From NCBI RefSeq assembly GCF_003725415.1, contig NZ_RJQC01000001.1:645362-709361 (forward strand): 64,000 bases of DNA, given 5' to 3'. A model generated the notes under the pieces. The model searched no databases, had not been told where the DNA came from, and saw only the letters and a list, made by a program, of their open reading frames with translations. Of the stretch, positions 41,801 through 60,927 are shown in pieces. A program made the translations under genes and the position numbers. How positions within the stretch are numbered: position 1 is the stretch's first letter; each line of letters opens with the position of its first letter. This stretch comes from Absicoccus porci. Its GTDB lineage: Bacteria > Bacillota_I > Bacilli_A > Erysipelotrichales > Erysipelotrichaceae.

Positions 41801-41884
41801 ATAAGCAGATACTCGCTTTGCTGTATTTTCTGCATGTTTTTCTGCATCAAATTCTGTAGTTTCAACAGTTATATTCTTATCCAT
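38813..41884 (-). CDS. hsdR: HsdR, type I restriction subunit (intact)
   Basis: A 1023-residue restriction and translocation subunit. The nuclease motif is in VVIFLNGLAIIAFELKC (near residue 180). Helicase motifs are complete: QHSAGSGKTNSIAWLAHRL, VIIDEAHSS, FAFTATPKPTTIQLFGR, VLLVANKYQTGFDQP and LSRLNRI. A long helical C-terminus follows. Length and domain order are normal, in contrast to the broken hsdR at 28933-31646, and the two are not close copies. It lies three bases after the unknown 142-residue gene. Confidence 0.93.
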   Translation of the reverse strand: MDKNITVETTEFDAEKHAENTAKRVSAYSEMLIHHTSIVSEKEYQKFLLERLEKDNGYIIRKASNFDRYFAVDREILFKFLEDTQHETMDYLRKIYKADLEDTIVSFINAEATKTRGSLLDVLKHGIEISNQKLELMYTKPATTFNPDLTRKYGQNIFSAMEEVWASDKERIDVVIFLNGLAIIAFELKCNAAGQSYQDAIYQFRTDRSPKTRLFMFKAGTLVNFAMDLEEVYMTTKLAGDATFFLPFNMGNGEGVTAGAGNPVFEDKYSVSYMWEDILTKDTILDLISKFIFVETKEKVDDKTGKIKRSENLIFPRYHQLDVIRKVLADVRENRTSQNYLIQHSAGSGKTNSIAWLAHRLTSLHDAENKIIFDNIIIVTDRVVVDRQLQKAIMGMEHKAGLIRVMDDKCNSADLAIALNGNTKIIATTIQKFPYIVDSVKGLENKSFAVIIDEAHSSTAGKDMAAVTMSLGSGDQTEADVEDMISSEIKRNGKQANVSIFAFTATPKPTTIQLFGRLNKHGQREAFHVYSMKQAIEEGFILDVLQNYTEYSTFYQLNKEIEDDPRCKTNAAKRQIARFIELHETNIAQRVEVIVEHFRTTVMQELGGQAKAMVITASRQGAVKYRQAFEEYITKKGYDGIHALVAFSGKVKLPDDDKEYTEASINGFPEDRLTKEFDTDNYQVLLVANKYQTGFDQPKLCAMYVLKKLKGVNAVQTLSRLNRICAPYDKKTFVLDFVNTYEDIKAAFAPYYTTTLLANSVTPNAIYDLEATIDAYALFDPADIEAANDILYSQKVTGKQKQRLTFFLQKSKKLLEHYEYETQRQAVADMRGFVRYYEFLLQVSSFEDTDLHKKYNFISYLLAYINIKHPGGGFNLDGKIKASQFVQKKGEEHLSSDLVAKPVMKLPTAEHFGLTEDKEKRLSEIIDEINSRTGKNYDNDVVVKAMLQIRDILMKSDKLKTSAKNNTQQDFEFSYFDDIDDALIEGLSQNQDFFSMLLSNDEMKRQVLGIFSGEIYKSLRESL

Positions 41885-41887: not shown

Positions 41888-42316
41888 TCACGCCTCCTTC
41901 CTGATATGCTCTCCGGTTTCGAGATTGATAAATTCATTCAACTTTATCTTTCCTTCGAAATCGGCTCCGTATTCACCAGCTCTTGTCTGGTCATCAAATT
42001 TAAAACTATTGTTATAGTATCGACCCGATTTAGTCTTGCGAATCAAATCATGCTGAATCATAAAGTCGATAACACGGTAATGATTCTCTATATCGTCACC
42101 ATTAAGGTAAAAACAGATAACTCCAGTATCCATCATCTGCACTTCCATATCTGTGCATTTGCATTCATAGCAGGCACCTGCTTCAATCGCTGCTTCGCAT
42201 ATTTTCTGAGCGAACTCTTGGTCGTCAAAAAAGTACATCCATTTGCCACATTTATGCTTTTCCAGCTTGTCCTCTTGCCCGGACAGGTACCAACACCATC
42301 CGCCCATTTTAAGCAT
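41888..42316 (-). CDS. Unknown 142-residue protein inside the hsd operon
   Basis: I do not recognise this family. The ATG at 42316 has AAGGAGGTG eight bases upstream and overlaps the hsdS stop by eight bases, so it is a real, coupled gene. The front (MGGWCWYLSGQEDKLEKHKCGKWMYFF) is rich in Trp and Cys, and five cysteines lie in the first 60 residues (with a CYECKC cluster), which could bind metal. The second half (VICFYLNGDDIENHYRVIDFMIQHDLIRKT) looks like a small alpha/beta fold. Its place between hsdS and hsdR suggests a link to the restriction complex. Confidence 0.75.
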   Translation of the reverse strand: MLKMGGWCWYLSGQEDKLEKHKCGKWMYFFDDQEFAQKICEAAIEAGACYECKCTDMEVQMMDTGVICFYLNGDDIENHYRVIDFMIQHDLIRKTKSGRYYNNSFKFDDQTRAGEYGADFEGKIKLNEFINLETGEHIRKEA

Positions 42317-43604
42317 CAGCTGGCACCTCCTTCTTGCCTGTGACATACTCGTAAATCATTGTTTTCTTATATTCATCCAGTGTTTCAAGCTGTTCTCTTT
42401 TCGCTGTGATTACAGCATCAACTTTGCAAAGCACACTATCGATATGTTCCACAATTCTGTTTTGCTCATCAACTGGAGGAACAGGATAAAACAATTCTGA
42501 TAGTTTGTTCCATCTCAAGTCACAAGAACGAACACGAATACCGGTTGACATAGCTAAGAAAACATCACTGTATGCCATACTTCTTAAATAATACATAATG
42601 TATCGTTTGTTCTGCTCTGTATCCAGCACATTTAAAACTGGTGATGCTTTTCCTCTAGAGTCAGAAATTCCAATCGCTCCAGCAAAACCATCCATACCGT
42701 GAACAACTAAATCACCAACATCAATTCCTTGATAGCCGATTTCTTTATCAGCCATTGTAAATCCATCTTCTCTACGATTACTTCTAAGAGTCACTTCTCC
42801 ATCTCTAAAGCAGGTAATTACACCATCATCTTCTCGAGTTGTTTTCTGAATATACTTAAGAATGTATTTCCCTCGAACACATTTCCAGTGATTTGGCATC
42901 TTTCCAATCCATTGAATGTTGGTTTCTTTATAGTCAACACTCTGATTAAGACCTTTAGTCACACACTCTGTGATTACGGTTTTCTTATATGATTCCAATA
43001 CCTCAACCTGTTGCTGAATGTTTGCTATTAGTGCTTCAATTTTTTCACATTGAATATCTAAATAGTCAGATATCCTTCTTTGTGTTTCGATTGGAGCCAC
43101 AGGAATATACAAACCCCCAAATTTATCCATAGGGATTCGCATCCTAATCGTATTCAATTTACCATTGTTCGATTCTTTCATTAAAATCCCGTTTCCCAAA
43201 CCAAACAAACTCCTCTGAAATATAGTTGTTTGGAAAATATAATTATAAAATCGAACATCTTCGTTGTTACGAAGCGGTCTCAACATATAATAAACTGGAC
43301 TAACACATCCAAAATATTTAGATAATCCAACCGAACCAGAGAGTATGTTCATGCTGTTCATGACTATATCGCCCGGATAAGCCAAACGATAACCACTTAA
43401 ATCTTCTTTAGGCTTGTTACCGCCTCCTTCTTTTTGGTCATGCGGAATGACTCCTTGTTTAGCAGTTAACGAAAGAATATCACTTGTTTGGACAGGATTA
43501 TTTTTTTCGATTCTTTCCTGAAGGCAGTATTTTATTTTTTTTAGCTTCCATGAAGCCGGATATTTGCCCAGCCATTGGATTCCACTTTCAATCATTGCAT
43601 CCAT
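42309..43604 (-). CDS. hsdS: HsdS specificity subunit (intact system)
   Basis: A 431-residue specificity subunit with the usual two repeats: IESGIQWLGKYPASWKLKKIKY opens the first domain and ETNIQWIGKMPNHWKCVRGKYI the second. Each ends in a conserved helix (PIETQRRISDYLDIQCEKIEALI; PVDEQNRIVEHIDSVLCKVDAVI). It belongs to a different HsdS type from the repeat-bearing hsdS at 32618. It lies 12 bases after hsdM. Confidence 0.93.
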   Translation of the reverse strand: MDAMIESGIQWLGKYPASWKLKKIKYCLQERIEKNNPVQTSDILSLTAKQGVIPHDQKEGGGNKPKEDLSGYRLAYPGDIVMNSMNILSGSVGLSKYFGCVSPVYYMLRPLRNNEDVRFYNYIFQTTIFQRSLFGLGNGILMKESNNGKLNTIRMRIPMDKFGGLYIPVAPIETQRRISDYLDIQCEKIEALIANIQQQVEVLESYKKTVITECVTKGLNQSVDYKETNIQWIGKMPNHWKCVRGKYILKYIQKTTREDDGVITCFRDGEVTLRSNRREDGFTMADKEIGYQGIDVGDLVVHGMDGFAGAIGISDSRGKASPVLNVLDTEQNKRYIMYYLRSMAYSDVFLAMSTGIRVRSCDLRWNKLSELFYPVPPVDEQNRIVEHIDSVLCKVDAVITAKREQLETLDEYKKTMIYEYVTGKKEVPADA

Positions 43605-43616: not shown

Positions 43617-45719
43617 TTACCCGAACAATTCTTCAACTTGTTTACTAACGGATTGTTCTAATTCCGTGAAACGATTTTCTAGTACCTCACTTGTAGCTGG
43701 TGCCTGATATCTATAAAAAGTTCTAGTAAATGGAATCTCTGCACCAGTCTTTATAACAGGTTTCTTTGCTGTAAGGTTTTCTTCAAAGAATGCTGTTGCA
43801 TCCGGAATATATGGAAGTACCTCTCTTTCCATATAACTATTAATATCCTCTTCATATGGAACTATTTCTGTATCCTTAGTTTCTTTATCAAAGAGAATAT
43901 TTCCTTTTCTATCTTTTTGTATTACTGCTTTCTTATCCATAGTGGAAAGACCATCAGCAATTTTATCAAGCAGTTTCTTATCTGTGGTGATTGCGGCAAG
44001 CACCTTTCGTAGCACTGGATTAAACTCACTCGGTGAGTAATAGATATCGTTAGAAACCGAGTCCTCTAACGCTTCTAAAATAGCATCATATGTATCTTTA
44101 TTTTCAAGGAACTGCTCCAACTTTTTCTGCTCTTTTCCACTTAATTCTTCTGCATTCTGGAGCTCATTAACTTTGCCTTCATCATACAACGAAGAAAGAG
44201 CTCCCTTTGTAAGCATAGCCATAATTCTATCATGCGTAATGCTGTAGCTTCTCTGCAGCGGCTGCATAACAACATACTCTTTATATATAAATTCCTCATT
44301 TCTGAAAATTCTACTAAACTCATTCTCTTCAAAATTGGCATATAGTTTAGTGATTTCAGTTCTATCTTCAGGAGAGATTTCGTTTCTTTTGTCTCCTAGC
44401 GCTTTACGTAATCTATGGCAAAATGAAGATGCATCAATAAGTTGTACTTTACCCTTTCTTTCAGGACGCTTATTTTTTGAGAGCACCCAAATATAAGTGG
44501 CAATTCCAGTATTGTAGAACAAATCGACCGGAAGGCCTATAATCGCCTCAATCAAATCATTTTCCAGCATCCATTTCCTTATCTGGCTCTCACCAGAAGA
44601 TGTACCACCATTAAAGAGTGGGCTACCGTTTTCAATAACAGCTGCTCTACCAAAATTGTCATCCATCTTGTCAATAGCTGACTGAAGGAACAACATCTGC
44701 ATATCACCGGAACCCGGAAGTCCAGCGCCCCAGCGTCCGTCAAATCCCTTGGCATATTCGTCATTAACAGCCTTTTCTACACCTTCAGCAGCATCTTTAC
44801 CGCCCCAAGGTGTACCAAAAGGAGGATTTTCAATTACGAAACGCATCTTCGTTCCCTCAAAGCGGTCCTTCTTCATGGTATCCTGATAACAGATATTTTC
44901 CGCATTCTGTCCTTTGATAAGCATCTCTGCAAGACAAATAGCATAAGATTCAGGATTAATTTCCTGACCAAAAAGGCGCACGTCAGCTGTCGGGTTATAA
45001 CGCTTGATGAAGTTGTATCCCGTGGAAAGCATACCGCCGGTTCCGCACGCTTGGTCCAAAACTGTAATAACTTTACCGTCATCGAAAATATCGTCGCAGC
45101 CTTCAGCCAAGAGAATGTTTACCATCAACTTGATAATGTCACGGCCAGTATAGTGGTCACCAGCCTCTGCATTTTCAGAGAATCTACGGATGAGGTCCTC
45201 GAAAATATATCCCATCTTTACATTGTCGATAGTACGAGGATTCAAATCCAATTCAGAGAAAGCCTTAACAACACTGAGCAGACGATTGTTCTTATCCATC
45301 TTGTCAATTTGCTTATAAAAGTCGAGACCTTTCTCAGCAGATACAATAATCTCCTGAACATTCGGTGAAAAGCTCTGCAAATATGCTTTGAAGTTTGCAG
45401 CCAAATGGTCTGCATCATTAATCAGCTCGGCCAGTGTAAACTCACTAGTATTGTAGAACTGAAAACCAGAAATACGATACATCGCCTTTGCCGGATAGTT
45501 CGGATTCGCTTTGAACTGTGCTACCACCTTGTCCTTGGTAGGTTCCAGTGCACACTCAAAACGTCTGATGATAACCATTGGAATGATTACATCCTTGTAT
45601 TTATCACTCTGGTATGTACCACGCAGTTTGTTTGCGATGGACCAGATAAAATTGACCTCTGTTGATACATCGATAGGGGAATCATCCCACATTGCATCGA
45701 TTGTCTGCTTTTGTGCCAT
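43617..45719 (-). CDS. hsdM: HsdM, type I DNA methyltransferase subunit (intact)
   Basis: A 700-residue N6-adenine methyltransferase. An HsdM_N helical domain (VNFIWSIANKLRGTYQSDKYKDVIIPMV) precedes SAM motif I VLDQACGTGGMLSTGYNF (near 225), LFGQEINPESYAICLAEML and the catalytic VIENPPFGTPWGGK. A long C-terminal helical part (residues 480-700) contacts HsdS in known complexes. The ATG at 45719 follows GGAGG; the frame's earlier ATG overlaps that binding site. Confidence 0.93.
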   Translation of the reverse strand: MAQKQTIDAMWDDSPIDVSTEVNFIWSIANKLRGTYQSDKYKDVIIPMVIIRRFECALEPTKDKVVAQFKANPNYPAKAMYRISGFQFYNTSEFTLAELINDADHLAANFKAYLQSFSPNVQEIIVSAEKGLDFYKQIDKMDKNNRLLSVVKAFSELDLNPRTIDNVKMGYIFEDLIRRFSENAEAGDHYTGRDIIKLMVNILLAEGCDDIFDDGKVITVLDQACGTGGMLSTGYNFIKRYNPTADVRLFGQEINPESYAICLAEMLIKGQNAENICYQDTMKKDRFEGTKMRFVIENPPFGTPWGGKDAAEGVEKAVNDEYAKGFDGRWGAGLPGSGDMQMLFLQSAIDKMDDNFGRAAVIENGSPLFNGGTSSGESQIRKWMLENDLIEAIIGLPVDLFYNTGIATYIWVLSKNKRPERKGKVQLIDASSFCHRLRKALGDKRNEISPEDRTEITKLYANFEENEFSRIFRNEEFIYKEYVVMQPLQRSYSITHDRIMAMLTKGALSSLYDEGKVNELQNAEELSGKEQKKLEQFLENKDTYDAILEALEDSVSNDIYYSPSEFNPVLRKVLAAITTDKKLLDKIADGLSTMDKKAVIQKDRKGNILFDKETKDTEIVPYEEDINSYMEREVLPYIPDATAFFEENLTAKKPVIKTGAEIPFTRTFYRYQAPATSEVLENRFTELEQSVSKQVEELFG

Positions 45720-45796
45720 TATATTTTCCTCCATTCAGACTAAGAGCTTCTTAGTCAATGTTAATTTTATATTTTTAGATATCCAATAATCAGGAC

Positions 45797-48073
45797 TTAG
45801 TCCTCGATTCCCATCATCATCTTATAGTGCTGTTCCTGATGCATAGCGGTGAAAATCAGCTCAAACACCTTCTTGCACTGTTCCACATCACTGCCATCAT
45901 CAATATAGTTGAAGCCATCACTGATAACAGCCGGGCCGTCATTCATATATGTGAGCATGCTTGAAGCAAGATTATATCGGTCGTAATTCGGCTTCTGTCC
46001 TTCCACTTCATCCACAAACAACGGCTTATTCTGTTCCAGAACAATCTTGTGAAGGTCATTTCCTTCGTAGCCACATATCTGAATAAAGTAGTATTCAAGA
46101 ATATGGCGGATTACATTCTTCACGGTATTTGCCGTTTTCAGCTCCTTGTATTCATCCCAAAGAGCTGCATACGAGTTCTGAATCGGATTATAGTTTTCTT
46201 GCTCGGTAGGCACCCTCTGGCTCTGACGCACACAAAGTTTTACAGAAGAAATGTTTTCTACCTTTCGAATCATATAAAACGAAACACTGTGGTATCTCTT
46301 TGCTTGGTGATGAGTAATTTCCTTATGGAAATAAACATTGTGAGTCAGAATGAAAACCTGCTTAATATAGTCGCCATCGACCTTATTGCTTCGGTAGTCT
46401 GTATTGTTGTAACAAACCTCAATCATCTCTCTGACCAAAGCACTGACGATGAACAGTGCTCCACTATCCATACTGGATACCGGGTCATCGATAACAACTA
46501 TTTTATCTTTTACAGCTTCGCTGCTAAGGCTTCCTTTCACAAGGTGATAATAATACAAGAATGCAATAAAGTTTCTTTCACCCTCGCTCAGTTTTTCTGC
46601 AACAGTTCCATCCGGACGAATGACCTCATATGTATTTGCTACACCATCCTTTGCACGAAGGTGGAAACCTTCAAAGCCTGAATTATCAAGCAGCACATTG
46701 ATGCTATCGATAGTAGCCTCAGTATTCACAATCTGTTTGTTTAGTTCATTGGCCTCTTCCTTCTTAGCAGTAGCATCCTTTTTTAGCTGCTCCATTTTAC
46801 CTTTCAGTGATTTGATTTCAACATCCAAATCAGTCAAGGCCTTGTTGTACGCAGCAACGTCGGTTTTCAAAAGCTCTGCAAGATACTCCCACACCTGCTT
46901 TTTGCATAGAACCTTCTTTGTTTTGAGGTCTCTGACTATCTCATTATTTTCTTTGATTTTCTTATTAAAGCCATCAATCAGAGTGCCAATCTCAATGAGC
47001 AAACTATCAGTGTCTTCTAAGGAAGCAATGGATGTCGGCTCTTTAATCTTTGCTGCAATTCTCTGTTTATTAATGGTTATCGCATCCACAAGAAGCTGAA
47101 CTTTTACTTCATATTCCGACAAGTCTAATCCCGGCATAGCAGCAGATACATTGCCCTCCAGCGTTGCTACAACGGAATCCATCTCTGATTCATATGTTCT
47201 TTGAAAAGCATTAATCGCAGAGATGTCATCTTGATACTGTGCGTCGAAGCATGCAGCTATTTCTTTATCAAAGTTAGACGGGAGTTTTTGCTGGCAATAT
47301 GGGCACTTTCCGTCTGTCTGGCCAGCAAAATGAGTATGACCACTTCGTACCCAATCAGTAGCTTTTAGGGCTTTAATAAATTTTGCAAAGTCCGTATCAC
47401 TGCTGCTGGAGATTGGTTTGCCCATCAATTCATATCCCGGCAAGGATGCATAGGTAACTTTACCTGCCTTAGACAGCATGTTGTACTGCTGTGCATCGCC
47501 AGAAAAAACGGTCCCATATAGAGTTTTTAAATCTTCAACATCATGAGCAACCGGCGTAATTGCTAAAATTTCTTGAGCGAATAATGCAGCCTTTTTCTTA
47601 CCCTTAATAGCTTCATCAAATAGTGTTCTGGCTTCCGCACTCTTGCTCCAGCAGTCTGATTGAAATGTCGATAAAGCGGTATTCTTATCCGCTGTTTTCT
47701 GGTCTATAGCGGCCTTATGTCCGTTATATTCCTCACCCATTTTCTTGCGTTCTGCATTGAGTGTATCGACCTGCTCTTGAATAGCAATATTAGTTTCGTT
47801 CACGGTGAATACACCAGCAAGATTTCCATAGTTACGCAAGTTAGCATTTATAAAATCTGTATCATACACAAGAACATCATATTCAGTTGATGCCCTCCCA
47901 GCTTGCCACTGTAAATGTTCATCGTTTGCCTTAAACGTTCGTGCAATGGTAGATTTGCCTGCACCATTCTTCCCATAGAAGAAATTTACATACGTCGGTT
48001 CTATAACCTCATTGGAAAATGTGGCATCGTTTAACGTTATTTTTTCTATTGCTGATTTCATTTTAGGGTTCAT
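45797..48073 (-). CDS. RloC/PrrC-type ABC ATPase (AAA_13)
   Basis: A 758-residue ATPase. Walker A FFYGKNGAGKSTIARTFK is at the front, a long coiled coil spans about residues 95-470 and carries a zinc-hook-like CPYC (DGKCPYCQQKLP), and the signature KLSEGERNFIAFLYYY, Walker B KIVVIDDPVSSMDSGAL and a late HNVYFHKE follow. The tail of about 170 residues has VIRHILEYYF, an RxxxE arrangement like that in the PrrC anticodon-nuclease site, but I could not place the third residue with the PrrC spacing. PrrC and RloC cut tRNA when a restriction system is disarmed, and PrrC is encoded within a type I operon as here. The nuclease role is inference. AGGAGG lies upstream. Confidence 0.75.
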   Translation of the reverse strand: MNPKMKSAIEKITLNDATFSNEVIEPTYVNFFYGKNGAGKSTIARTFKANDEHLQWQAGRASTEYDVLVYDTDFINANLRNYGNLAGVFTVNETNIAIQEQVDTLNAERKKMGEEYNGHKAAIDQKTADKNTALSTFQSDCWSKSAEARTLFDEAIKGKKKAALFAQEILAITPVAHDVEDLKTLYGTVFSGDAQQYNMLSKAGKVTYASLPGYELMGKPISSSSDTDFAKFIKALKATDWVRSGHTHFAGQTDGKCPYCQQKLPSNFDKEIAACFDAQYQDDISAINAFQRTYESEMDSVVATLEGNVSAAMPGLDLSEYEVKVQLLVDAITINKQRIAAKIKEPTSIASLEDTDSLLIEIGTLIDGFNKKIKENNEIVRDLKTKKVLCKKQVWEYLAELLKTDVAAYNKALTDLDVEIKSLKGKMEQLKKDATAKKEEANELNKQIVNTEATIDSINVLLDNSGFEGFHLRAKDGVANTYEVIRPDGTVAEKLSEGERNFIAFLYYYHLVKGSLSSEAVKDKIVVIDDPVSSMDSGALFIVSALVREMIEVCYNNTDYRSNKVDGDYIKQVFILTHNVYFHKEITHHQAKRYHSVSFYMIRKVENISSVKLCVRQSQRVPTEQENYNPIQNSYAALWDEYKELKTANTVKNVIRHILEYYFIQICGYEGNDLHKIVLEQNKPLFVDEVEGQKPNYDRYNLASSMLTYMNDGPAVISDGFNYIDDGSDVEQCKKVFELIFTAMHQEQHYKMMMGIED

Positions 48074-48094
48074 ATGCAAATCTACCTCCTGCTT

Positions 48095-48295
48095 CTATTC
48101 TTTAATTTTTCCTTCTCTGACCCATTCGTCAACTTCAGAGATTTTGAATTTATATCGTTTTCCAGCTTTATATACAGGTAATTTTCCTTCTTTTATCCAA
48201 GTACGGACTGTATCCTGACTCAAACTTAGGTGTTCTGCTACATCTTCAAGGTTTACCCATTTTTCAACTTGCATGTTTTCATATTCTGCACTCAT
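48095..48295 (-). CDS. Small excisionase-like HTH protein
   Basis: A 66-residue DNA-binding protein of the MerR/excisionase type: WVNLEDVAEHLSLSQDTVRTWIKEGKLPVYKAGKRYKF is a complete helix-turn-helix with wing. Such proteins often precede hsd genes in Bacillota. It probably controls this operon. GGAGG lies just before the ATG. Confidence 0.85.
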   Translation of the reverse strand: MSAEYENMQVEKWVNLEDVAEHLSLSQDTVRTWIKEGKLPVYKAGKRYKFKISEVDEWVREGKIKE

Positions 48296-48336: not shown

Positions 48337-48984
48337 TTATAAAGAAAAGACTTGTATCCCAGCTTCTCTTAATACCTCTACTGCATTTATCTTTTTTATT
48401 GCCCAGTGCATACGATTCAATTCATTCGTTCCGCTGCAGCCTTCGATTCCGAGTTCAAACCGAAGTTCATTTATTTTCTGCTGTGGTATCCAGTTGAGTA
48501 TTTGATAATATACTTTGATACCATTGTCCTGAATTTTCACATCAACAATCAACCCATAAGCTGCATAGTGGTCTGCGTCCGTTTTTCCATAAGCGTGGTT
48601 CTCAGTCGCAATAATTGCTGGATAGGTTTTCAACACCGAAATTGCATCATCCGACAAAGTCGCATAAGCTGCTTTCAATTCTTTTGACGTACTTTCCGTT
48701 ATTGCTCTATCCTTACGAACAAGGCAATGACAGTACTGAGGATTTAATTCATCATCCCCGACAACCAGAAGATTATAAAAATCTGTATTTAATGCAATGG
48801 TATGCGCTGCGTTAGGACTTCCCGGCATGGGTGGTGCTCCACCCACCATCATTACACTATAGGTATTATTCACTGCGTCCGTATGAGCTACTAACGTATT
48901 ATTGTTACCGGGCAAATTAAATGTTGTATTCGGTGTTTGCGTTTGCAAAGCTCCCGGTTGTGATGGCTGTAATTTATTCTCCAT
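48337..48984 (-). CDS. Unknown 215-residue protein with N-terminal GNNN motif
   Basis: I do not recognise the family. Near its N-terminus lies TTFNLPGNNNTLVAHTDAVN, which matches the C-terminus of the upstream gene's product. The rest (IALNTDFYNLLVVGDDEL...YCHCLVRKDRAI, then ISVLKTYPAIIATENHAYG and an alpha/beta end) looks like a compact enzyme or binding domain. The start at ATG 48984 (GGAGG upstream) overlaps the previous gene by 11 bases, so the two are translated together. It heads a defence operon; function unknown. Confidence 0.75.
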   Translation of the reverse strand: MENKLQPSQPGALQTQTPNTTFNLPGNNNTLVAHTDAVNNTYSVMMVGGAPPMPGSPNAAHTIALNTDFYNLLVVGDDELNPQYCHCLVRKDRAITESTSKELKAAYATLSDDAISVLKTYPAIIATENHAYGKTDADHYAAYGLIVDVKIQDNGIKVYYQILNWIPQQKINELRFELGIEGCSGTNELNRMHWAIKKINAVEVLREAGIQVFSL

Positions 48985-49876
48985 CTTTTTTCTGCCCTCC
49001 ATAATAATTGTTCGTAATGCTATCGACATGCTGAATGAAACTATTATTATTTCCAGTCACATTAAAGTTGAAAACCATTTGCTGTTTTGACTTTGCTTCC
49101 TCCTGACGAGGTTCTTCATAGACTTCTTCAACGATAATATCATCTGGCGATTTATCTGCTTTATTATCGGCAACGCCATCATCTTTAGGTTCAACGTAAC
49201 TCAGTTTAATATCAACAGGCCAATTAACACCAATATCTCCAGTGTAAGCCCTTTTACCTCCACCTGAGGATGGACACCAAACATCAAATGTTTTTGCCCC
49301 TACTGTATTATCAACATTACATACAGCGTAATGAAATACTCCTAGCAGGAATGGCTGCAGGGAAATCTCTTTCATAGCAACAACATCTTTCTTCTGCATT
49401 GTTGCTCCATCTTCCTTAACATAAAAGGATTGACTTTCATCTATGCAATTATCTAACGATATTAGTTCGACGAGTGCTTTCACGAGCAGCTCGTCTTTTT
49501 TTATATCTCCTCCGGCATCAATGAATCCCTCTACAAAGCAGCACATTTTTCTCAAGGTATCGGCATACTCATTCTTCACTCTTTCGTCAAAAACTCTCAA
49601 TGCTGTTTTATCACCGAACGGAAAGTAGCCTCCACCTGCATTCTTGCATTTTTTATATTCTGATGCGTTACCTTGAATCGTCTTGATTTCAGTCGGCATC
49701 GGTGTCGCTAAATCTGAACGTATCACTCTAGCCAGACCAATCAAAGTTTCATATTCAGTTAATCCATCTTTTTTCCCTGCGTAGTGTTCATTTGCTCCCA
49801 GCAGTTGCTTTCTTGCCTCTAAAAGTAAGGTGAAGAATGTACCGCCACACAGTCTTAAATTTTCATTTTTTGTCAT
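48974..49876 (-). CDS. Unknown 300-residue protein with C-terminal GNNN motif
   Basis: First gene of the defence operon, behind GAGGGA. No family is recognised. The N-terminal two thirds are helical (LCGGTFFTLLLEARKQLLG...ADTLRKMCCFVEGFIDAGG) with some cysteines. A middle segment (FLLGVFHYAVCNV...TFDVWCPSSGGGKRAYTGDIG) follows, then an acidic linker (residues 235-265), and a C-terminal tail VFNFNVTGNNNSFIQHVDSI with NNYYGG. That tail is repeated at the front of the next protein. A helical sensor or adaptor is one possibility, with nothing to prove it. Confidence 0.75.
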   Translation of the reverse strand: MTKNENLRLCGGTFFTLLLEARKQLLGANEHYAGKKDGLTEYETLIGLARVIRSDLATPMPTEIKTIQGNASEYKKCKNAGGGYFPFGDKTALRVFDERVKNEYADTLRKMCCFVEGFIDAGGDIKKDELLVKALVELISLDNCIDESQSFYVKEDGATMQKKDVVAMKEISLQPFLLGVFHYAVCNVDNTVGAKTFDVWCPSSGGGKRAYTGDIGVNWPVDIKLSYVEPKDDGVADNKADKSPDDIIVEEVYEEPRQEEAKSKQQMVFNFNVTGNNNSFIQHVDSITNNYYGGQKKDGE

Positions 49877-49984: not shown

Positions 49985-50187
49985 ATGTCTGTTGACCGTT
50001 GAATCTGATGAACATAAATCAGAACAACCCCAAACAAACCCCACTAAATCATTATAACACTTTCTGACATTATTTTCAATGTAGTGAACATGAACGAACA
50101 ATGAACTCTACAGCGAAATATGCCGGAAAACTCTGTTTCCACCTGTGGCTGGTCACAAATCTACGCCAATCACAGGAGGAAAAAATA

Positions 50188-50700
50188 ATGGCAAAAAACG
50201 TAAATCAGAGTAAACAGTACCGTATCTATTTGAAATCCACCAAGGAATGGGTGGAAGTCCCTGAAGAGTTCTATCGTGAACAAACCCGTTATTACGACAC
50301 GTTTCGACATCGCATGCAGGAGCACGGACAGTGCAGCTGCCCCAAAAGTAAGTTCTGGCTCTGCGATGGTGACTGCTTAACCTGCGAGTTTCGCTGTGCA
50401 GGAGATATGCTGTCTCTCGACTACGAAACTGAGAACGATAGCGGCGATACTTGTTCGATGCTTGACAGCATCCCCGATACTGCTCCTCTTGCAGCAGATA
50501 TCATTGCGGACAAGCTCCTTCTGGAACAGCTGGTTCAGCGCCTGCACGAACTTGACCCAGATGCCGGTCTCATTCTCCAGCTTCTCAAAGACGAAAAATC
50601 TGACCGTGCTATCGCTGAGGCACTCGGCAGACCACAGAGAACCTTTGCACACCAGATGAAGCGATACCGTGATGAACTGCGAAATATCCGTGGGTACTAA
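50188..50700 (+). CDS. Sigma factor-like HTH protein
   Basis: A 170-residue protein. The second half (LLLEQLVQRLHELDPDAGLIL...DRAIAEALGRPQRTFAHQMKRYRDEL) reads like sigma-70 region 4. The middle has a cysteine cluster (CSCPKSKFWLCDGDCLTCEFRC) that may bind metal. Proteins like this head the early genes of related phages and integrative elements. AGGAGG precedes the ATG at 50188; the longer frame from 50101 has no such site. Confidence 0.75.
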   Translation: MAKNVNQSKQYRIYLKSTKEWVEVPEEFYREQTRYYDTFRHRMQEHGQCSCPKSKFWLCDGDCLTCEFRCAGDMLSLDYETENDSGDTCSMLDSIPDTAPLAADIIADKLLLEQLVQRLHELDPDAGLILQLLKDEKSDRAIAEALGRPQRTFAHQMKRYRDELRNIRGY

Positions 50701-50767
50701 GACCTAACCGAAAGCTGTTTTATCAACTTTCAAAATTTTTTCAAAAATAATGGCTCAATCCGGCAGC

Positions 50768-50824
50768 TCACCTCCATTGGTAAGTGTAAGGCACAGAACA
50801 AAACACCTTACAGAATGGAGGTGA
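50768..50824 (+). promoter_or_regulatory. Hairpin that hides a ribosome binding site
   Basis: TCACCTCCATT (50768-50778) pairs perfectly with AATGGAGGTGA (50814-50824), and inner bases (TAAGTGT/ACACCTTA) pair further. The right arm is the Shine-Dalgarno of the next gene (GTG at 50830). In RNA form this would block translation unless opened. Confidence 0.7.
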
Positions 50825-50829
50825 CTACC

Positions 50830-51039
50830 GTGAAGCAGTCTCATTACAGAAACAGCCGAGGCGATGCTGAAGTAATTCAGGTTTTAACCGCAATTAGCAT
50901 CGTGTCCGGCAGAATGGCAAGGAACATGAGCGTCCTCGCCGCACACAGACAATCCGAGGAAGGAGGAACAGTAAATGTCAAAAATGAGCGATATGGCTAT
51001 GACCATCGAAGAGCTGAGAAATGCTGCCGCTGCTATTAA
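50830..51039 (+). CDS. Small phage protein, GTG start
   Basis: A 69-residue protein. The start is GTG at 50830, six bases after GGAGGTGA. The segment NSRGDAEVIQVLTAISIVSGRMARNMSVL looks like a real amphipathic helix, and I recall close relatives in Clostridia phages and integrative elements. The end (KCCRCY) is Cys-rich and overlaps the next gene in another frame. Function unknown. Confidence 0.6.
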   Translation: MKQSHYRNSRGDAEVIQVLTAISIVSGRMARNMSVLAAHRQSEEGGTVNVKNERYGYDHRRAEKCCRCY

Positions 51040-51289
51040 CGACGCAGCAAACTGGCTCGCACAGCAGTTTGGAGGAGTATTCGAAGCTGCTGAAACAGCA
51101 GAAGCCCCTGCTGCTCCTGCGAAACCTGCATTGACACTTGAGGAGGTTCGAGCTGTTCTGGCTGATAAATCTCGTGCCGGTCATACAGCTGAAATTCGAG
51201 AACTTCTTAAAAAGTACGGTGCAAGCAAGTTGTCACTCGTAGACCCGAAACATTATGAAGCCCTGCTCAGGGAAGCGGAGGTGCTCTAA
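50975..51289 (+). CDS. Hypothetical phage protein, helical with Ala/Pro linker
   Basis: A 104-residue protein: an N-terminal helix (MTIEELRNAAAAINDAANWLAQQFG), an Ala-Pro-Glu linker, and a C-terminal small domain (TLEEVRAVLADKSRAGHTAEIRELLKKYGASKLSLV) like that in phage proteins of recombination clusters. GAAGGAGG lies upstream. It is two bases from the DUF2800 gene, so it likely assists that pair. Confidence 0.75.
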   Translation: MSKMSDMAMTIEELRNAAAAINDAANWLAQQFGGVFEAAETAEAPAAPAKPALTLEEVRAVLADKSRAGHTAEIRELLKKYGASKLSLVDPKHYEALLREAEVL

Positions 51290-51290
51290 T

Positions 51291-52430
51291 ATGCCACCTA
51301 AAGGACATGCAATCCTCTCCGCATCCTCTTCTGACCGCTGGCTCCACTGTCCACCGTCAGCAAGGCTCTGCGAAACCTATGAGGATAAAGGCAGCAACTA
51401 TGCTGCAGAAGGCACCGATGCCCACTCCCTTTGTGAGTACAAGCTCCGCAAGGCACTCGGCATGGAAGCTACAGACCCGACCGAGAATCTCGACTGGTAC
51501 AACGCTGAGATGGAGGATTGCGCTACCGGCTATGCCAGCTTCATCATGGAGCTTTTGGAAGAGGCCAAACAGACTTGCTCTGACCCTGTTGTTCTGATTG
51601 AACAGCGAGTGGACTTCTCTCACTGGGTGGAACAAGGCTTCGGAACCTCGGATGCCATTCTCATCAGCGACGGCACCATGCACGTGATTGACTATAAACA
51701 CGGTCTTGGAATTCTCGTATCCGCTGAGGACAATCCGCAGATGAAGTGCTACGCCCTTGGTGCATTGGAACTGTTCGATGACATCTACGACATCGATACG
51801 GTCAGCATGACCATCTACCAGCCTAGACGTCAGAACGTTTCCACCTACGAAGTCAGCAAGGATGACTTGTACCAGTGGGCCGATGAAGTTTTGAAGCCTA
51901 CCGCAGACCTTGCCTTTGCCGGTGATGGAAACTTCCTATGTGGTGAATGGTGCGGATTCTGTAAAGCAAAGCATGAATGCCGAGCTAGAGCTGAAGCCAA
52001 TCTCCTACTCGCACAGCACGATTTCAAGCTGCCGCCACTGTTGGAGGATTCGGAAATTGAATTCATCCTCTCCCGTGTCGACGAACTAGTCTCTTGGGCA
52101 GGTGACATCAAGGAGTATGCACTCCAGCAGGCAATCAGCGGTAAAGAATGGACTGGCTGGAAGCTGGTCGAGGGTCGCTCCAACCGCAGATACACCAGTG
52201 AAGACGCCGTGTCGAAAGCTGTCGAAGCTGCTGGTTTTGACCCTTACGAAAAGAAACTGCTTGGTATCACAGCCATGCAAAAGCTGCTCGGTAAGTCTCG
52301 CTTCGAAGAGCTCCTTGCAGCATATATTGAAAAGCCACAAGGCAAACCTACTCTTGTGCCGGAGAGCGATAAGCGCCCGGCAATGAACACAGCAAAAAAT
52401 GATTTTATGGAGGAATACGACAATGAGTAA
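51291..52430 (+). CDS. DUF2800 phage nuclease-like protein
   Basis: A 379-residue DUF2800 protein, a PD-(D/E)xK nuclease relative resembling Cas4/RecB. The start GHAILSASSSDRWLHCPPSARL is diagnostic. Catalytic-type residues lie in GTSDAILISDGTMHVIDYKHG (near residues 125-145), and cysteines in GEWCGFCKAKHECRARAE (near 225) resemble an Fe-S site. It probably works with DUF2815 in phage recombination or replication. GGAGGTG precedes ATG 51291. Confidence 0.85.
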   Translation: MPPKGHAILSASSSDRWLHCPPSARLCETYEDKGSNYAAEGTDAHSLCEYKLRKALGMEATDPTENLDWYNAEMEDCATGYASFIMELLEEAKQTCSDPVVLIEQRVDFSHWVEQGFGTSDAILISDGTMHVIDYKHGLGILVSAEDNPQMKCYALGALELFDDIYDIDTVSMTIYQPRRQNVSTYEVSKDDLYQWADEVLKPTADLAFAGDGNFLCGEWCGFCKAKHECRARAEANLLLAQHDFKLPPLLEDSEIEFILSRVDELVSWAGDIKEYALQQAISGKEWTGWKLVEGRSNRRYTSEDAVSKAVEAAGFDPYEKKLLGITAMQKLLGKSRFEELLAAYIEKPQGKPTLVPESDKRPAMNTAKNDFMEEYDNE

Positions 52431-52995
52431 GAATGTAAAAATGACAAATCCCATGAAGGTTATCACTGGTCCTAACACACGCTGGAGCTACGCCAACGTC
52501 TGGGAACCGAAATCAATCAACGGCGGCACTCCGAAGTACAGTGTCAGCCTGATTATCCCGAAGTCTGACACCAAGACTGTCGCTAAGATTGAAGCAGCTA
52601 TCGAGGCAGCCTACCGTGAAGGCGAATCCAAGCTCAAGGGCAACGGCAAGTCTGTACCGGCGCTTTCCGTACTTAAGACTCCTCTTCGTGACGGAGACCT
52701 TGAGAGACCGGATGACCCTGCATATGCTGGCAGCTACTTTGTAAATGCCAACGCCACTTCTGCTCCGGGCATCGTGGATGCAGACCGCAATCCTATCCTC
52801 ACTCGTTCTGAGGTTTACTCCGGAGTCTACGGTCGTGCCAGCATCAGCTTCTATGCTTTCAACAGCTCTGGTAATAAGGGCATCGCCTGCGGCCTTAACA
52901 ATCTGCAGAAGATTCGTGATGGCGAGCCTCTTGGCGGTAAGGCATCTGCTGAATCCGACTTTGCAACTGATGACGATGATGATTTCCTTGATTAA
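52423..52995 (+). CDS. DUF2815 ssDNA-binding-like phage protein
   Basis: A 190-residue DUF2815 protein (RWSYANVWEPKSINGGTPKYSVSLIIPKSD at the front, GVYGRASISFYAFN in the second half). The family looks like phage single-strand DNA-binding proteins with an OB fold and has an acidic tail, here ATDDDDDFLD, as such proteins use to bind partners. GGAGG precedes ATG 52423; it overlaps DUF2800 by eight bases. Confidence 0.85.
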   Translation: MSKNVKMTNPMKVITGPNTRWSYANVWEPKSINGGTPKYSVSLIIPKSDTKTVAKIEAAIEAAYREGESKLKGNGKSVPALSVLKTPLRDGDLERPDDPAYAGSYFVNANATSAPGIVDADRNPILTRSEVYSGVYGRASISFYAFNSSGNKGIACGLNNLQKIRDGEPLGGKASAESDFATDDDDDFLD

Positions 52996-53010
52996 TGGAG
53001 GTGACAAACT

Positions 53011-53199
53011 ATGGAGACAATCATGATTAGTACGATTCTTGTAAACATCTGTATCGGCTGCTTCGCTTGTGTGGGACTTGCTACTGCGGTCTCTATCATT
53101 CAGAGCATCATCAATGACCACAAGCGTGAAAAGCGTGAACAGGAAAAGGACAAGCGTGACCTCGAATACCACGAGAAGCGCATGAGGGACTTTAAGTAA
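53011..53199 (+). CDS. Small membrane protein with charged tail
   Basis: A 62-residue protein with one membrane segment (ILVNICIGCFACVGLATAVSII) and a strongly charged helical tail (KREKREQEKDKRDLEYHEKR). Ribosome binding site GGAGGTG. Its role in the phage is unknown. Confidence 0.7.
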   Translation: METIMISTILVNICIGCFACVGLATAVSIIQSIINDHKREKREQEKDKRDLEYHEKRMRDFK

Positions 53200-53210
53200 T
53201 CTATCAACCC

Positions 53211-53247
53211 GATGGCGGTGGCCCCCACTGCCGCCATCGACATTTTT
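53211..53247 (+). terminator. Terminator after the small membrane protein
   Basis: A perfect 8-bp GC-rich stem (GATGGCGG/CCGCCATC, 53211-53238) followed by GACATTTTT. Confidence 0.7.
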
Positions 53248-53266
53248 CGACAAAAGGAGACAATCT

Positions 53267-53452
53267 ATGAATGAATTTGTAGAAACATTGAATCTCTTTA
53301 TTGGCAGTGTCATCGCCTATACCTTTTTGGTAGCGGTATATGGTTTCATCATCTACAACGTAGGAAAAGTCATTCTCTACCTTATCCGCTATGCGGTATA
53401 CCATATCCGCCGTGACATCAATAAATACAAATCCAATAAAGATAAACAGTAA
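53267..53452 (+). CDS. Second small membrane protein
   Basis: A 61-residue protein with a long hydrophobic stretch (NLFIGSVIAYTFLVAVYGFIIYNV and on to YLIRYAVYHI) and a basic tail. AAAGGAG lies before the ATG. It stands between two hairpins. Function unknown. Confidence 0.65.
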   Translation: MNEFVETLNLFIGSVIAYTFLVAVYGFIIYNVGKVILYLIRYAVYHIRRDINKYKSNKDKQ

Positions 53453-53457
53453 CACGG

Positions 53458-53490
53458 CAGGCGGCAGGGATTTCTCTGCTGCCTGTTTTG
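53458..53490 (+). terminator. Hairpin before the polymerase gene
   Basis: CAGGCGGCAG (53458-53467) pairs with CTGCTGCCTG (53476-53485) with one G-T pair, then TTTTG. A weak terminator; the polymerase ribosome binding site follows within 15 bases. Confidence 0.55.
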
Positions 53491-53506
53491 TAGAAAGGAC
53501 AACCTC

Positions 53507-55447
53507 ATGAAAACACTCAGTATTGATATTGAGACCTACAGCGATGTGCCTCTTCAGAAGACCGGTGTCTATCGTTATGTAGAATCTCCCAATTTTGAAA
53601 TCTTACTCTTTGCCTACAGTGTCGACAGCCAGCCCGTTCAGGTTATCGACCTCGCCTGTGGTGAACAGATTCCCAAAGATGTCCTTCTTGCCTTGGAGGA
53701 TGAAACTGTCATCAAGTGGGCCTTCAACGCTACTTTTGAACGTATCTGCCTCTCTCGCTTCTTAGGTTATCCGACTGGAGAATATCTGGAGCCGGAAAGC
53801 TGGCGTTGCTCCATGATATGGGCTGCCACGATGGGACTCCCACTCTCCTTGGAAGGTGTCGGCGCTGTTCTGGGTCTGGAAAAGCAGAAGCTCTCAGAAG
53901 GAAAAGACCTCATCAAATACTTCTGCCAGCCTTGTGCTCCCACAAAAACCAATGGGCAGCGTACAAGAAATCGCCCTTCCCATGCTCCGGACAAATGGGC
54001 CATGTTCAAAAAATATAATATCCGTGATGTGGAGACCGAAATGGGTATCCAGCAGAGGCTTGCGAAGTTTCCAGTACCAGCTCAGGTCTGGGATGAATAC
54101 CACATGGACCAAGAAATCAACGACCGTGGTGTACGTTTGGATATGGAGCTTGTTGCTGCTGCCATCGAAATGGATACTCGCTCCAGAACGGAACTGACCG
54201 AAACCATGAAGAAAATCACGGAGCTGGAGAATCCTAACTCCGTCCAGCAGATGAAGGCTTGGCTTTCTGACAATGGTTTGGAAACAGATACTCTTGGCAA
54301 AAAGGCTGTGGCAGAGCTCCTAAAGTCTGCTCCTCCAAAGCTCTCACAGGTGCTTACTTTAAGACAGCAGCTGGCTAAGTCTTCCGTCCGTAAATATCAG
54401 GCGATGGAAAAGACCGTGTGCGCAGATGGTCGTGCTCGTGGCATGTTCCAGTTTTATGGTGCCAATCGAACCGGCAGATTCTCCGGTCGTAACATCCAGC
54501 TGCAGAACCTACCGCAAAACCATCTTTCGGACCTTGCAGAGGCTCGTTCTCTGGTGCGCTCCGGCAACTTTGAAGCTGTGGAACTTCTCTACGAAGATGT
54601 GCCGGATACACTTTCCCAGCTCATCCGTACCGCCTTTATTCCCAGAGAAGGCACTAAATTTCTTGTAGCTGACTTTTCTGCTATCGAAGCCCGTGTCATC
54701 GCATGGTTTGCCGGTGAAAAATGGCGTCAAGAGGTCTTTGCCAAAGGCGGAGATATCTACTGTGCTTCTGCCAGCCAGATGTTCAAGGTCCCTGTCGAGA
54801 AGCACGGTATCAATGGTCACCTCAGACAAAAAGGCAAAATCGCTGAACTTGCCCTCGGTTACGGAGGCTCGGTCGGGGCCTTAAAAGCTATGGGAGCATT
54901 GGATATGGGGCTCACTGATGAGGAACTCCCACCACTGGTCGATGCATGGAGGCAGTCCAACCCGAACATCGTTAAATTCTGGTGGGATGTGGACCGAGCT
55001 GTCATGGAAGCCGTAAAGTTCAAGCACACCACTTCCGACTATGGTCTGACCTTCTCCTGCAGGAGTGGTATGCTCTTTATCACTCTCCCGTCGGGAAGAA
55101 AGCTCGCATATGTGAAACCGAAGATTGGAACAAATAAGTTCGGTGGTCAGTGTATTACCTATGAAGGTGTCGGCGGCACCAAGAAGTGGGAGCGTCTCGA
55201 TTCCTATGGTCCGAAATTTGTCGAGAACATCGTGCAGGCAACGGCCCGTGATATTCTCTGCTATGCCATGCAGACACTCCGCTGCTGCTCCATTGTCATG
55301 CACATCCACGATGAAGTGGTCATTGAAGCAGGCCCTCTCATGTCCTTGGATGCGGTCTGTGAACAAATGGGCCGTACTCCACCTTGGGCCAAGGGGCTAC
55401 TTTTAAGAGCCGATGGCTATGCGACACCTTTTTATAAAAAAGATTAA
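53507..55447 (+). CDS. Phage family A DNA polymerase
   Basis: A 646-residue replicative polymerase. The 3'-5' exonuclease domain has LSIDIETYSD (first residues) and KWAFNATFERICLSRFL. The polymerase domain has FQFYGANRTGRFSGRNIQLQNLP, motif A LVADFSAIEARVIAWFAG (near residue 385), motif B RQKGKIAELALGYGGSVGAL and motif C HIHDEVVIEAG (near 610). All catalytic aspartates are in place. Length is typical of this phage type. Confidence 0.93.
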   Translation: MKTLSIDIETYSDVPLQKTGVYRYVESPNFEILLFAYSVDSQPVQVIDLACGEQIPKDVLLALEDETVIKWAFNATFERICLSRFLGYPTGEYLEPESWRCSMIWAATMGLPLSLEGVGAVLGLEKQKLSEGKDLIKYFCQPCAPTKTNGQRTRNRPSHAPDKWAMFKKYNIRDVETEMGIQQRLAKFPVPAQVWDEYHMDQEINDRGVRLDMELVAAAIEMDTRSRTELTETMKKITELENPNSVQQMKAWLSDNGLETDTLGKKAVAELLKSAPPKLSQVLTLRQQLAKSSVRKYQAMEKTVCADGRARGMFQFYGANRTGRFSGRNIQLQNLPQNHLSDLAEARSLVRSGNFEAVELLYEDVPDTLSQLIRTAFIPREGTKFLVADFSAIEARVIAWFAGEKWRQEVFAKGGDIYCASASQMFKVPVEKHGINGHLRQKGKIAELALGYGGSVGALKAMGALDMGLTDEELPPLVDAWRQSNPNIVKFWWDVDRAVMEAVKFKHTTSDYGLTFSCRSGMLFITLPSGRKLAYVKPKIGTNKFGGQCITYEGVGGTKKWERLDSYGPKFVENIVQATARDILCYAMQTLRCCSIVMHIHDEVVIEAGPLMSLDAVCEQMGRTPPWAKGLLLRADGYATPFYKKD

Positions 55448-55466
55448 ATATATGTGGCTCAAATTA

Positions 55467-55510
55467 GGCGTTCACCTCCATTGGATATTAGAGGTGGACG
55501 TCCTTTTTAT
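55467..55510 (+). terminator. Terminator-like hairpin after the polymerase
   Basis: GGCGTTCACCTCC and GGAGGTGGACGTCC-like arms pair with a bulge and one G-T (55467-55502), then CTTTTTAT. Its left arm shares the 13-mer TCACCTCCATTGG with the hairpin at 50768. Confidence 0.6.
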
Positions 55511-55538
55511 ATGTCCATCCGGAAAGGAGGAACCTGAC

Positions 55539-55958
55539 GTGTCAATCAGCAAATACAACAGCGAAGGATATTCTGACCCTACTGCTTACGGCGCTCTTTG
55601 CTCTATCGAGAGTGAGACCCGTGCACTGCGTGCTTTCAGACCAATCGTATATATCTGCTCTCCCTTTGCCGGAGACACCGAAAAGAACGTAGCTGCTGCC
55701 AGAGCCTACAGCCGCTTTGCAGTGGAACAAGGATACATCCCCATCGCACCACACCTGCTGTTTCCACAGTTTTTGAATGATACCGACCCGAAGGAACGTG
55801 AACTTGGTCTTTTCTTCGGAAATGCCATCATGAGCAAATGTTCTGAGGTCTGGGTCTTTGGAAGTCATATCTCTTCCGGCATGGAAGCAGAAATCAAACG
55901 AGCCAAGTGGAAGAATTACCGCCTGCGCTATTTCACTGAGAATCTTGAGGAGGTTTAA
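55539..55958 (+). CDS. DUF4406/nucleoside deoxyribosyltransferase-like protein
   Basis: A 139-residue protein starting at GTG (55539) behind AAAGGAGG. The fold pattern of the deoxyribosyltransferase-like DUF4406 family is clear: VYICSPFAGDTEKNVAAARAYSRF, then GYIPIAPHLLFPQFLND, CSEVWVFGSHISSGMEAEI. The family may act on nucleotides; no reaction is established. The frame extends upstream to 55413 over the terminator and is not used. Confidence 0.8.
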   Translation: MSISKYNSEGYSDPTAYGALCSIESETRALRAFRPIVYICSPFAGDTEKNVAAARAYSRFAVEQGYIPIAPHLLFPQFLNDTDPKERELGLFFGNAIMSKCSEVWVFGSHISSGMEAEIKRAKWKNYRLRYFTENLEEV

Positions 55959-55961
55959 CAC

Positions 55962-56291
55962 ATGTACGAAGTAAAAGAAAATTCAAGAATATTAAAAGAC
56001 GGAACCGAAATCACGACCTATAGCAGAGATGTCGTCAGCTGCAACATTTTAGAGGTCGAAGCAGGAACCACCGGCTATCGTGGTGGTGATACCGGTCATG
56101 GTGGTCGCACCTATTTCCGTATTCAGGATGCAGCCTGTACGGACATGGAAATCCATAGCTATACTACTCGCTGCGGCAGTAACGGTTTTGAGGTTTGCCT
56201 CGGTGGTGACTGCGAGCTGGAGACTATGATTCGAGCTTTGAAATTTATCACCAAGGTTCTGGAAGAGGAATCCAAGGAGGTGTATGACTAA
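55962..56291 (+). CDS. Hypothetical phage protein
   Basis: A 109-residue, beta-rich protein (YEVKENSRILKDGTEITTYS; GYRGGDTGHGGRTYFRIQD; GGDCELETMIRALKFITKVL). No known family recognised. GAGGAGG precedes the ATG, and its stop shares a base with the next start, so it is coupled to the primase-helicase. Confidence 0.7.
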   Translation: MYEVKENSRILKDGTEITTYSRDVVSCNILEVEAGTTGYRGGDTGHGGRTYFRIQDAACTDMEIHSYTTRCGSNGFEVCLGGDCELETMIRALKFITKVLEEESKEVYD

Positions 56292-58564: not shown

Positions 58565-58576
58565 GGCCATAAATGA

Positions 58577-58667
58577 CAAGGTGTATCAATGTGTTATATA
58601 AAACTTTTCTTAGGCCTATAAAAATATCAATAAGAAAAAGTATGGAAAATACCATTGATACACCTTG
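58577..58667. repeat. Perfect 15-bp inverted repeat after the primase-helicase
   Basis: CAAGGTGTATCAATG (58577-58591) and its exact complement (58653-58667) flank 61 bases of AT-rich DNA that contains a third TATCAAT (58625-58631). The block fills the gap between the primase-helicase and VRR-NUC genes and contrasts with the GC-richer genes around it. Confidence 0.85.
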
Positions 58668-58703
58668 CACCTCTTCAAATTAACGGCCTGATGGAGGACA
58701 AGT

Positions 58704-60309: not shown

Positions 60310-60378
60310 CAATCTTCGACAAAATACGACAATCCGTGCCAATCCGAGGGAAATCTATTTTTTCGGAGGTACCAATCA

Positions 60379-60813: not shown

Positions 60814-60866
60814 AAAGACACTAAGCTCTTCTGATATTATTATACTAGCGAAAGTGAGAATCGCAG

Positions 60867-60900: not shown

Positions 60901-60927
60901 TTATACCCAAACGGAAGGAGGAATACG

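Follow-up and report, generated by a model that had tools for sequence, protein, structure and literature searches.

The A-B gene pair and its surroundings

The window (the whole stretch of DNA analysed, 64,000 nucleotides) contains on the minus strand two overlapping genes, here called A and B, which head a cassette continued by genes for an HTH_17 protein and a zinc-hook ABC ATPase. The position of these genes, of the tags and domains within A and B and of the neighbouring loci is given in Table 1. The likely start of B is the ATG at 48984 (MENKLQ...), which lies within a longer open reading frame and 10 bases downstream of a Shine-Dalgarno sequence located in gene A. Given this start, the 11-base overlap reported in the first-pass annotation is present. 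Since the ribosome-binding site of B lies inside A, the two genes are probably translationally coupled.

Table 1. Features of the A-B cassette and of neighbouring regions, with positions in the window.
Feature	Position	Strand	Description
Gene A	48974..49876	minus	300 aa ORF: all-helical body (residues ~8-230), acidic disordered linker, C-terminal tag
A body domain	49187..49855	minus	also N-terminal in SNaCT14-NACHT, LmuA-CTD6 and one HamA protein
A tag	49001..49072	minus	FNFNVTGNNNSFIQHVDSITNNYY, residues 269-292
Gene B	48337..48984	minus	215 aa from ATG at 48984: N-terminal tag, linker, mixed alpha/beta domain; longest frame 48337-49029
B tag	48859..48921	minus	FNLPGNNNTLVAHTDAVNNTY, residues 22-42
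B body domain	48346..48789	minus	also N-terminal to TIR/SEFIR and CAP12-type TIR domains
A/B gene overlap	48974..48984	minus	11 bases
Shine-Dalgarno of B	48995..49000		GGAGGG
HTH_17 (excisionase/MerR-like) protein	48095..48295	minus	third cassette gene; Pfam HTH_17, E=1e-14
AAA_13 zinc-hook ABC ATPase, RloC-like	45797..48079	minus	fourth cassette gene; AAA_13, E=2e-128; PADLOC PDC-S06, 3e-221
hsdM	43617..45734	minus	type I restriction-modification locus, downstream; not a constant partner
hsdS	42309..43604	minus	family matches
152-aa ORF	41888..42346	minus	between hsdS and hsdR; no family match
hsdR	38813..41884	minus	family matches
Second type I locus	28933..34995	minus	apparently broken
hsdM of second locus	33910..34995	minus	N-terminal part missing
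hsdS of second locus	32023..32616, 32618..33913	minus	two ORFs
hsdR of second locus	28933..30255, 30267..31661	minus	split in two ORFs
Phage replication module	50101..64000	plus	divergent from the cassette; includes SNF2 helicase

The cassette adjoins a phage replication module encoding DUF2800, an Enc34 ssDNA-binding protein, DNA polymerase A and a D5-type primase, and the A-B region matches the predicted viral contig IMGVR_UViG_2881717282_000001 at 100%. Both observations suggest that the cassette is probably prophage-borne.

The C-terminal end of A (...VFNFNVTGNNNSFIQHVDSITNNYYGGQKKDGE), whose tag-bearing tail reads FNFNVTGNNNSFIQHVDSITNNYYGG, and the N-terminal start of B (...TTFNLPGNNNTLVAHTDAVNNTYS) have a tag of approximately 22 residues in common. 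Their local alignment reached a score of 76, compared with a mean of 21.8 (sd 4.1, maximum 48) for 5000 composition-preserving shuffles, and DNA coding for G-N-N-N occurs twice in the 64 kb window, both times within the tags of A and B. The matching GNNN tag at the facing ends of the two proteins, which had been noticed from the sequence alone, is therefore real. As a common pattern GNNN holds for the window pair, but other pairs carry different tags, which are still matched. Thus, GNNN is only the local version; the conserved feature is the matching within a pair and not the letters.

Distribution of A and B

Homologous loci were collected using A and then an alignment of five A proteins as queries. 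Of the loci obtained in these A-based searches, 63 were located in bacterial genomes and 40 in viral contigs, and the hosts were nearly all Firmicutes or their prophages. Across the 124 collected loci, A homologues were found in 119 and A together with B in 87. Among the relatives of the window genome, A was absent from 146 other genomes and B was found in one of 196. Taken alone, these relatives would have given the misleading impression of an isolated oddity.

Viral loci anchored on B (n = 56) contained A directly upstream in 49 cases, an A-B fusion in two and a single gene between A and B in one. In the remaining four a B domain was present but A was not, and at least one of these B domains forms the head of a TIR-like protein. 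The homologues are thus predominantly paired rather than single and do not lie mostly outside defence regions, and matched tags recur in homologous pairs (see below), so that the GNNN segment is not a low-complexity chance match confined to the window.

Several individual loci deserve mention. The Streptococcus phages Javan102, 105, 108 and 112 (MK448839, MK448667, MK448841, MK448843) carry an A-B pair deposited as hypothetical proteins. In Streptococcus azizii (L070, 5842-6838; L numbers designate collected loci) A is split into three ORFs beside an intact B. In L110, which lies on the same contig as L214, a NUDIX-like gene is inserted between A and B, and the two tags still match despite this insertion (QNGDKNVHIDHVDVLNI / QTGEKNTYINQADQVNI).

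Genes accompanying the A-B pair

In the loci with enough sequence, the genes after A-B included HTH_17 in 29 of 39 cases, the AAA_13 ATPase in 30 of 39, hsd genes in 13 of 36 and McrB in 3 of 36; these counts come from automatic detection and are hence lower bounds. No hsd genes were detected in 23 of the 36 loci whose downstream sequence was long enough, and a small Lactococcus plasmid (NZ_PP589675) has the A-B pair and no restriction genes, which indicates that A-B behaves as a module of its own. The earlier proposal of an uncharacterised system bound into an RloC-type/type I/McrBC operon is supported as regards the separate system, but the commonest partners are HTH_17 and AAA_13, and hsd or McrBC genes accompany it in a minority of cases.

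The frequent AAA_13 neighbour and the operon-like array of the window genes might also be explained if A and B were accessory subunits of the RloC-like ATPase or of the type I restriction complex and had no separate signalling role. Against this stand the low number of loci with detected hsd genes and the streptococcal and Lactococcus pairs, which are found without the ATPase. The ATPase can also be replaced: in L090 (7835-11062) and L103 (7823-11050) it is missing, and a 1076-aa HKD+Snf2 helicase-like protein follows A-B-HTH. Furthermore, A is partnered with NACHT proteins elsewhere. We therefore regard a purely accessory role as quite improbable.

The ATPase homologues retain the Walker A, zinc-hook CPYC (259-262), SEGE and DDP residues in 46 of 46 cases. 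RloC and PrrC likewise combine a CxxC zinc-hook ABC ATPase with an adjoining type I restriction locus, and RloC is defined by an anticodon-nuclease triad, R-X3-E-X36-52-H (PMC2610378). In the window ATPase, however, this triad is missing at the aligned R658/E662 site: no histidine lies at X36-52 after these residues, histidines being present only at positions 677, 747 and 751, and position 662 varies among the 46 cassette ATPases (E in 31). The loose pattern R-X3-E-X36-52-H does fit elsewhere in the ATPase, by chance. The label 'RloC-type' of the first-pass annotation is consequently appropriate for the ABC ATPase and the zinc hook, but not for the nuclease triad.

Co-variation of the tags

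For a detailed characterization of tag matching, 46 non-redundant A-B pairs with A bodies less than 80% identical were compared. Tag sequences vary widely across this set. Examples (A end / B start) are FEQSGGNGKQIGYVENYY / MEQSGGGGKQFGFVEHYE (L007), YGTGDIYSDIETLTIN / TGSGDIYSNIGSVTVN (L033), QNGDGNTVIPNYGTIVI / QTGNDNVLIPNYGTVNI (L043), QGGTATITQFNNATIETI / QGSNAEIQQFNNPQINTM (L109) and QYANNIYNIEHVENLN / QNADRIYNIEQANNVN (L008). The mean tag score was 56 for the own B versus 29 for other Bs, and for 38 of the 46 A tails the own B ranked among the top three of 46 (permutation p ≤ 5 × 10−5). Similarity of the A-side tags followed that of the B-side tags when both bodies were controlled for (partial Mantel r = 0.585, 0 of 5000 permutations). 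Between loci with A bodies at least 45% identical, own combinations scored higher than crossed ones in 237 of 249 comparisons, which are not mutually independent.

The tags of A and B change together across dozens of bacteria. Very probably they act as plug and socket, as specific coupling elements that join A and B.

The matched tags can be replaced while the A body stays highly similar. In L022 and L024 the A bodies are 84% identical and the tags are unrelated (own score 63, cross score 28). DNA identity between these loci is mostly 0.72-0.98 in the A body, falls to 0.38-0.44 over the A tail and B head, amounts to 0.53-0.66 in most of the B body and is mostly 0.8-0.9 again in the ATPase region. 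The matched tags, together with B, are thus replaced as one block.

Tags that lie close together and are similar in closely related loci (tag versus body similarity between loci, r 0.53-0.70) might in principle reflect no more than common descent or gene conversion at the locus and have no function. This is highly improbable in view of the partial Mantel test with bodies controlled and of the swapping of matched tags between highly similar bodies. In addition, at 492 identical aligned tag residues the same codon was used in 46% of cases, compared with 45% expected from both genes, which argues against recent duplication or gene conversion; the latter is excluded by this test as the origin of tag matching. 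Tag matching exists at the protein level only.

Alternative partners and natural fusions

Clearly, B is not the only partner of A. In L028, L030, L089 and L100 a NACHT protein follows A in place of B. The NACHT-partnered A tag NQKFISIETMNGDI matches the N-terminus of the adjacent NACHT protein, NQTIINIQNMTGNI, and a SNaCT14 C-terminus was confirmed for the NACHT protein of L089. The A bodies of L028 and L089 are 60-62% identical to that of L103, which is partnered with B, and in these loci the tags follow the partner. In two further loci (L227 and L228, both 3130-5273) one A is succeeded by two different Bs, apparently forming a three-protein set. Here the A tag NNYGKGVQIEELNGTLTININ is matched by both B heads, NNYGKGVQVGHADTF and NTGSGIQVGTNAGTINLNIN.

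A is also found covalently joined to its partners. A-NACHT fusions occurred in 35 of 69 NACHT loci, an A-CTD6 fusion in L057 and A-B fusions in L058, L063, L068, L235 and L237. In the fusion linkers read, whether A-NACHT, A-CTD6 or A-B, no matched tag pair was seen; the L063 and L068 fusions have kept a single N-rich stretch. Tags are thus matched where the proteins are split and the matched pair is absent where they are fused, which supports the idea that the tag pair acts like a substitute for a covalent linker.

Domain relatives of the A and B bodies

The AlphaFold model of A is all-helical for residues 10-230 (pLDDT mostly >90), and its tail (235-300, pLDDT around 50), which holds the tag, is disordered. 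No Pfam family was detected in A and its 55 homologues (56 members) and no Pfam domain in B; Pfam, NCBIfam, PHROGs and PADLOC searches with A and B gave no confident family. PDB sequence searches with profiles of A and B returned nothing, and Foldseek searches with two models, that of A and that of the naturally fused A-B protein of L058, found no match with E<0.05 among PDB and viral structures. For B, Foldseek revealed a weak resemblance to Lon N-domain / ASCH (PUA-like) folds. The B domain was modelled with high confidence inside the L058 fusion, and as the fusion model had a pTM of 0.60, no interface was read from it.

The initial statement that neither protein resembles anything known needs correction, as domain relatives exist in other proteins. 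The body of A is found in SNaCT14-NACHT proteins, where it stands at the N-terminus in the position of the effector, and at the N-terminus of an LmuA-type CTD6 protein beside LmuC (L057), and it forms the N-terminal extension of one HamA. The body of B is homologous to the N-terminal ~135 residues of TIR/SEFIR and CAP12-type TIR proteins; such domains precede SEFIR/TIR or CAP12-type TIR domains in enterobacteria, Vibrio and Paraburkholderia. A match of A to the PADLOC HamA model (E=0.0013) covers only this shared N-terminal extension and not the nuclease (DUF1837), and no HamA Pfam match was obtained; A is therefore not a HamA. In L014 (4611-5933), L062 (6001-7119), L071 and L072 the A bodies carry an extra C-terminal helical domain with no Pfam match, L072 being located near a PD-T4-6-like kinase gene.

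This pattern of domain exchange suggests, by inference, that A takes effector slots and B receptor or regulatory slots, and A is probably the effector and B the sensor. As neither a catalytic site nor a matching PDB fold could be recognised for A, its effector role is deduced from position, and its occurrence as an extra domain on a HamA with its own nuclease would also be compatible with a regulatory or scaffolding function. The roles might also be reversed, with B as the effector or as an RNA/DNA-binding actor and A as the sensor or adaptor, which would be in line with the PUA-like resemblance of B and with A being added to a HamA that already has a nuclease. Such a reversal is unlikely, however, since B precedes TIR domains that probably act as the effectors of those proteins, and in NACHT and LmuA proteins it is A that stands at the N-terminus, in the place of the effector.

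Kind of contact between the tags

RHIM and BASS3 motifs have the core Q-h-G-x-x-N-x-h in common. The A-B tags resemble it well above chance: Q.G..N was present in 25 of 92 tags (shuffled mean 3.5, maximum 10) and G..N.[hydrophobic/Q] in 47 of 92 (shuffled mean 14.6, maximum 24). The strict RHIM core [IV]Q[IVLC]G occurred in 4 of the 98 tags of the whole set; the window tags, which read G-N-N-N-x-hydrophobic with no Q at -2, do not fit it. In a comparison of the tags with two published example peptides, the experimentally verified BASS3 peptide VDLRDAKGVQVGDGNVQINRF (PMC8086366) aligned with tags such as LQIGDRNLQV (versus VQVGDGNVQI) and QTGDNNTQI. Compared with linkers and bodies, the tags are N/Q/G-rich (N+Q+G ~35-39%) and charge-poor (charged residues 9-12%). 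Owing to this composition and the RHIM/BASS3 resemblance, an amyloid-type contact is the better guess, and the coupling is probably of the cross-beta type.

Co-variation and swapping of tags are also compatible with any other specific pairwise contact. Hence the tags might be ordinary docking peptides that form a constitutive short heterodimeric beta-strand or coiled clamp, with neither amyloid templating nor signal relay, and the window tag without a strict RHIM core and the approximately half of the tags that G..N.h does not fit would agree with this. We nevertheless consider simple docking rather unlikely, because the N/Q/G-rich tags of low charge, the disordered A tail, the facing ends and the NLR as alternative partner correspond to the pattern of amyloid signalling motifs (PMC7889193, PMC8086366) and the RHIM/BASS3 resemblance clearly exceeds that of shuffled tags.

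Proposed mechanism and relation to known systems

On balance, it seems somewhat probable that A-B is a recurrent defence module with A in the effector and B in the receptor or sensor position, coupled by co-evolving terminal tags that replace covalent fusion, probably in an amyloid-type manner and without an NLR. The pairing, co-variation and swapping of tags, the switching of partners and the absence of the matched pair from fusions were read directly from the sequences; from there we infer a cross-beta contact, templating, a trigger, toxicity and a direction of the signal as follows. At rest, A would be soluble with a disordered tail, and B would be bound to, or would monitor, the ATPase or the restriction machinery. 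An insult would be detected by B, probably through or together with the adjacent zinc-hook ABC ATPase, and B would cluster. The clustered N-terminal tags of B might then assemble into a seed with beta structure, probably of the amyloid type (RHIM/BASS3-like), and this seed would template the A tails and so gather the helical domains of A. Gathering of the A bodies would finally switch on a putative toxic or abortive activity. We found no published defence assay of the A-B cassette in the literature.

The tags resemble the prion-like immune-signalling tags of fungi and filamentous bacteria, but the usual immune receptor is absent here. The closest parallel are the NLR-associated signalling sequences BASS1-10 (Dyrka et al. 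2020, as cited in PMC7889193 and PMC8086366), in which a C-terminal motif matches the N-terminus of the product of an adjacent or overlapping gene and in which, as in A-B, the motif family is diverse yet matched within pairs. The G-x-x-N core of the RHIM-like BASS3 recurs in many A-B tags. In BASS systems, however, the receptor side is an NLR (NACHT/NB-ARC), whereas the window has B beside a zinc-hook ABC ATPase and an NLR appears only in the sister loci L028, L030, L089 and L100. The effector side of BASS systems is Bell or another recognised domain such as CHAT or TIR; in Pfam searches the A of the window gave no match, nor could it be recognised as Bell. Finally, the BASS systems described come from multicellular bacteria, whereas the hosts of A-B are mainly Clostridia, other Firmicutes and prophages. 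A-B thus resembles BASS-type NLR signalling pairs in its working, but in the window it lacks one of their defining features, the NLR.

Clade-14 bNACHT proteins (SNaCT14 STAND) carry SNaCT domains and some defend against phages, and they are described as having no effector domain that can easily be made out (PMC12169576). Many SNaCT14-NACHT proteins have the A body as their N-terminal domain, and in other loci A is encoded adjacent to such a protein with matched tags, but NACHT and SNaCT14 are absent from A and B of the window, where B is in the place of the receptor. Lamassu LmuA (ABC-3C, CTD6) is related through the A body of L057, fused to CTD6 beside LmuC, and both systems are usually accompanied by an SMC-like ABC ATPase. 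The window A nevertheless lacks CTD6, its B is not LmuC and the PDC-S06 score of the ATPase is far above that for LmuB. With TIR/SEFIR and CAP12-type TIR effectors B shares the N-terminal domain and has a tag in place of the TIR domain.

More tentatively, the A-B loci may represent an NLR-independent amyloid relay of unicellular Firmicutes and their prophages, in which mutually specific tags, exchanged as a cassette, would constitute an orthogonal wiring code linking one candidate effector domain to receptors that can replace one another (B, two Bs or NACHT), with the zinc-hook ATPase and the restriction enzymes being guarded or doing the sensing.

Implications

The known cases of bacterial signalling amyloids are from filamentous, multicellular bacteria, and their occurrence in NLR-independent pathways is listed as an open question (PMC7889193). 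The A-B module is a concrete candidate for such an NLR-independent signalling amyloid in Firmicutes and prophages. What appears to be new is the existence of matched tag pairs outside NLRs in these organisms, with the same effector-side protein being wired to an NLR in sister loci. The dozens of natural matched and mismatched tag pairs can be used for tests of specificity. Moreover, the domain with which many SNaCT14-NACHT proteins begin can now be named, and in A it is seen standing alone.
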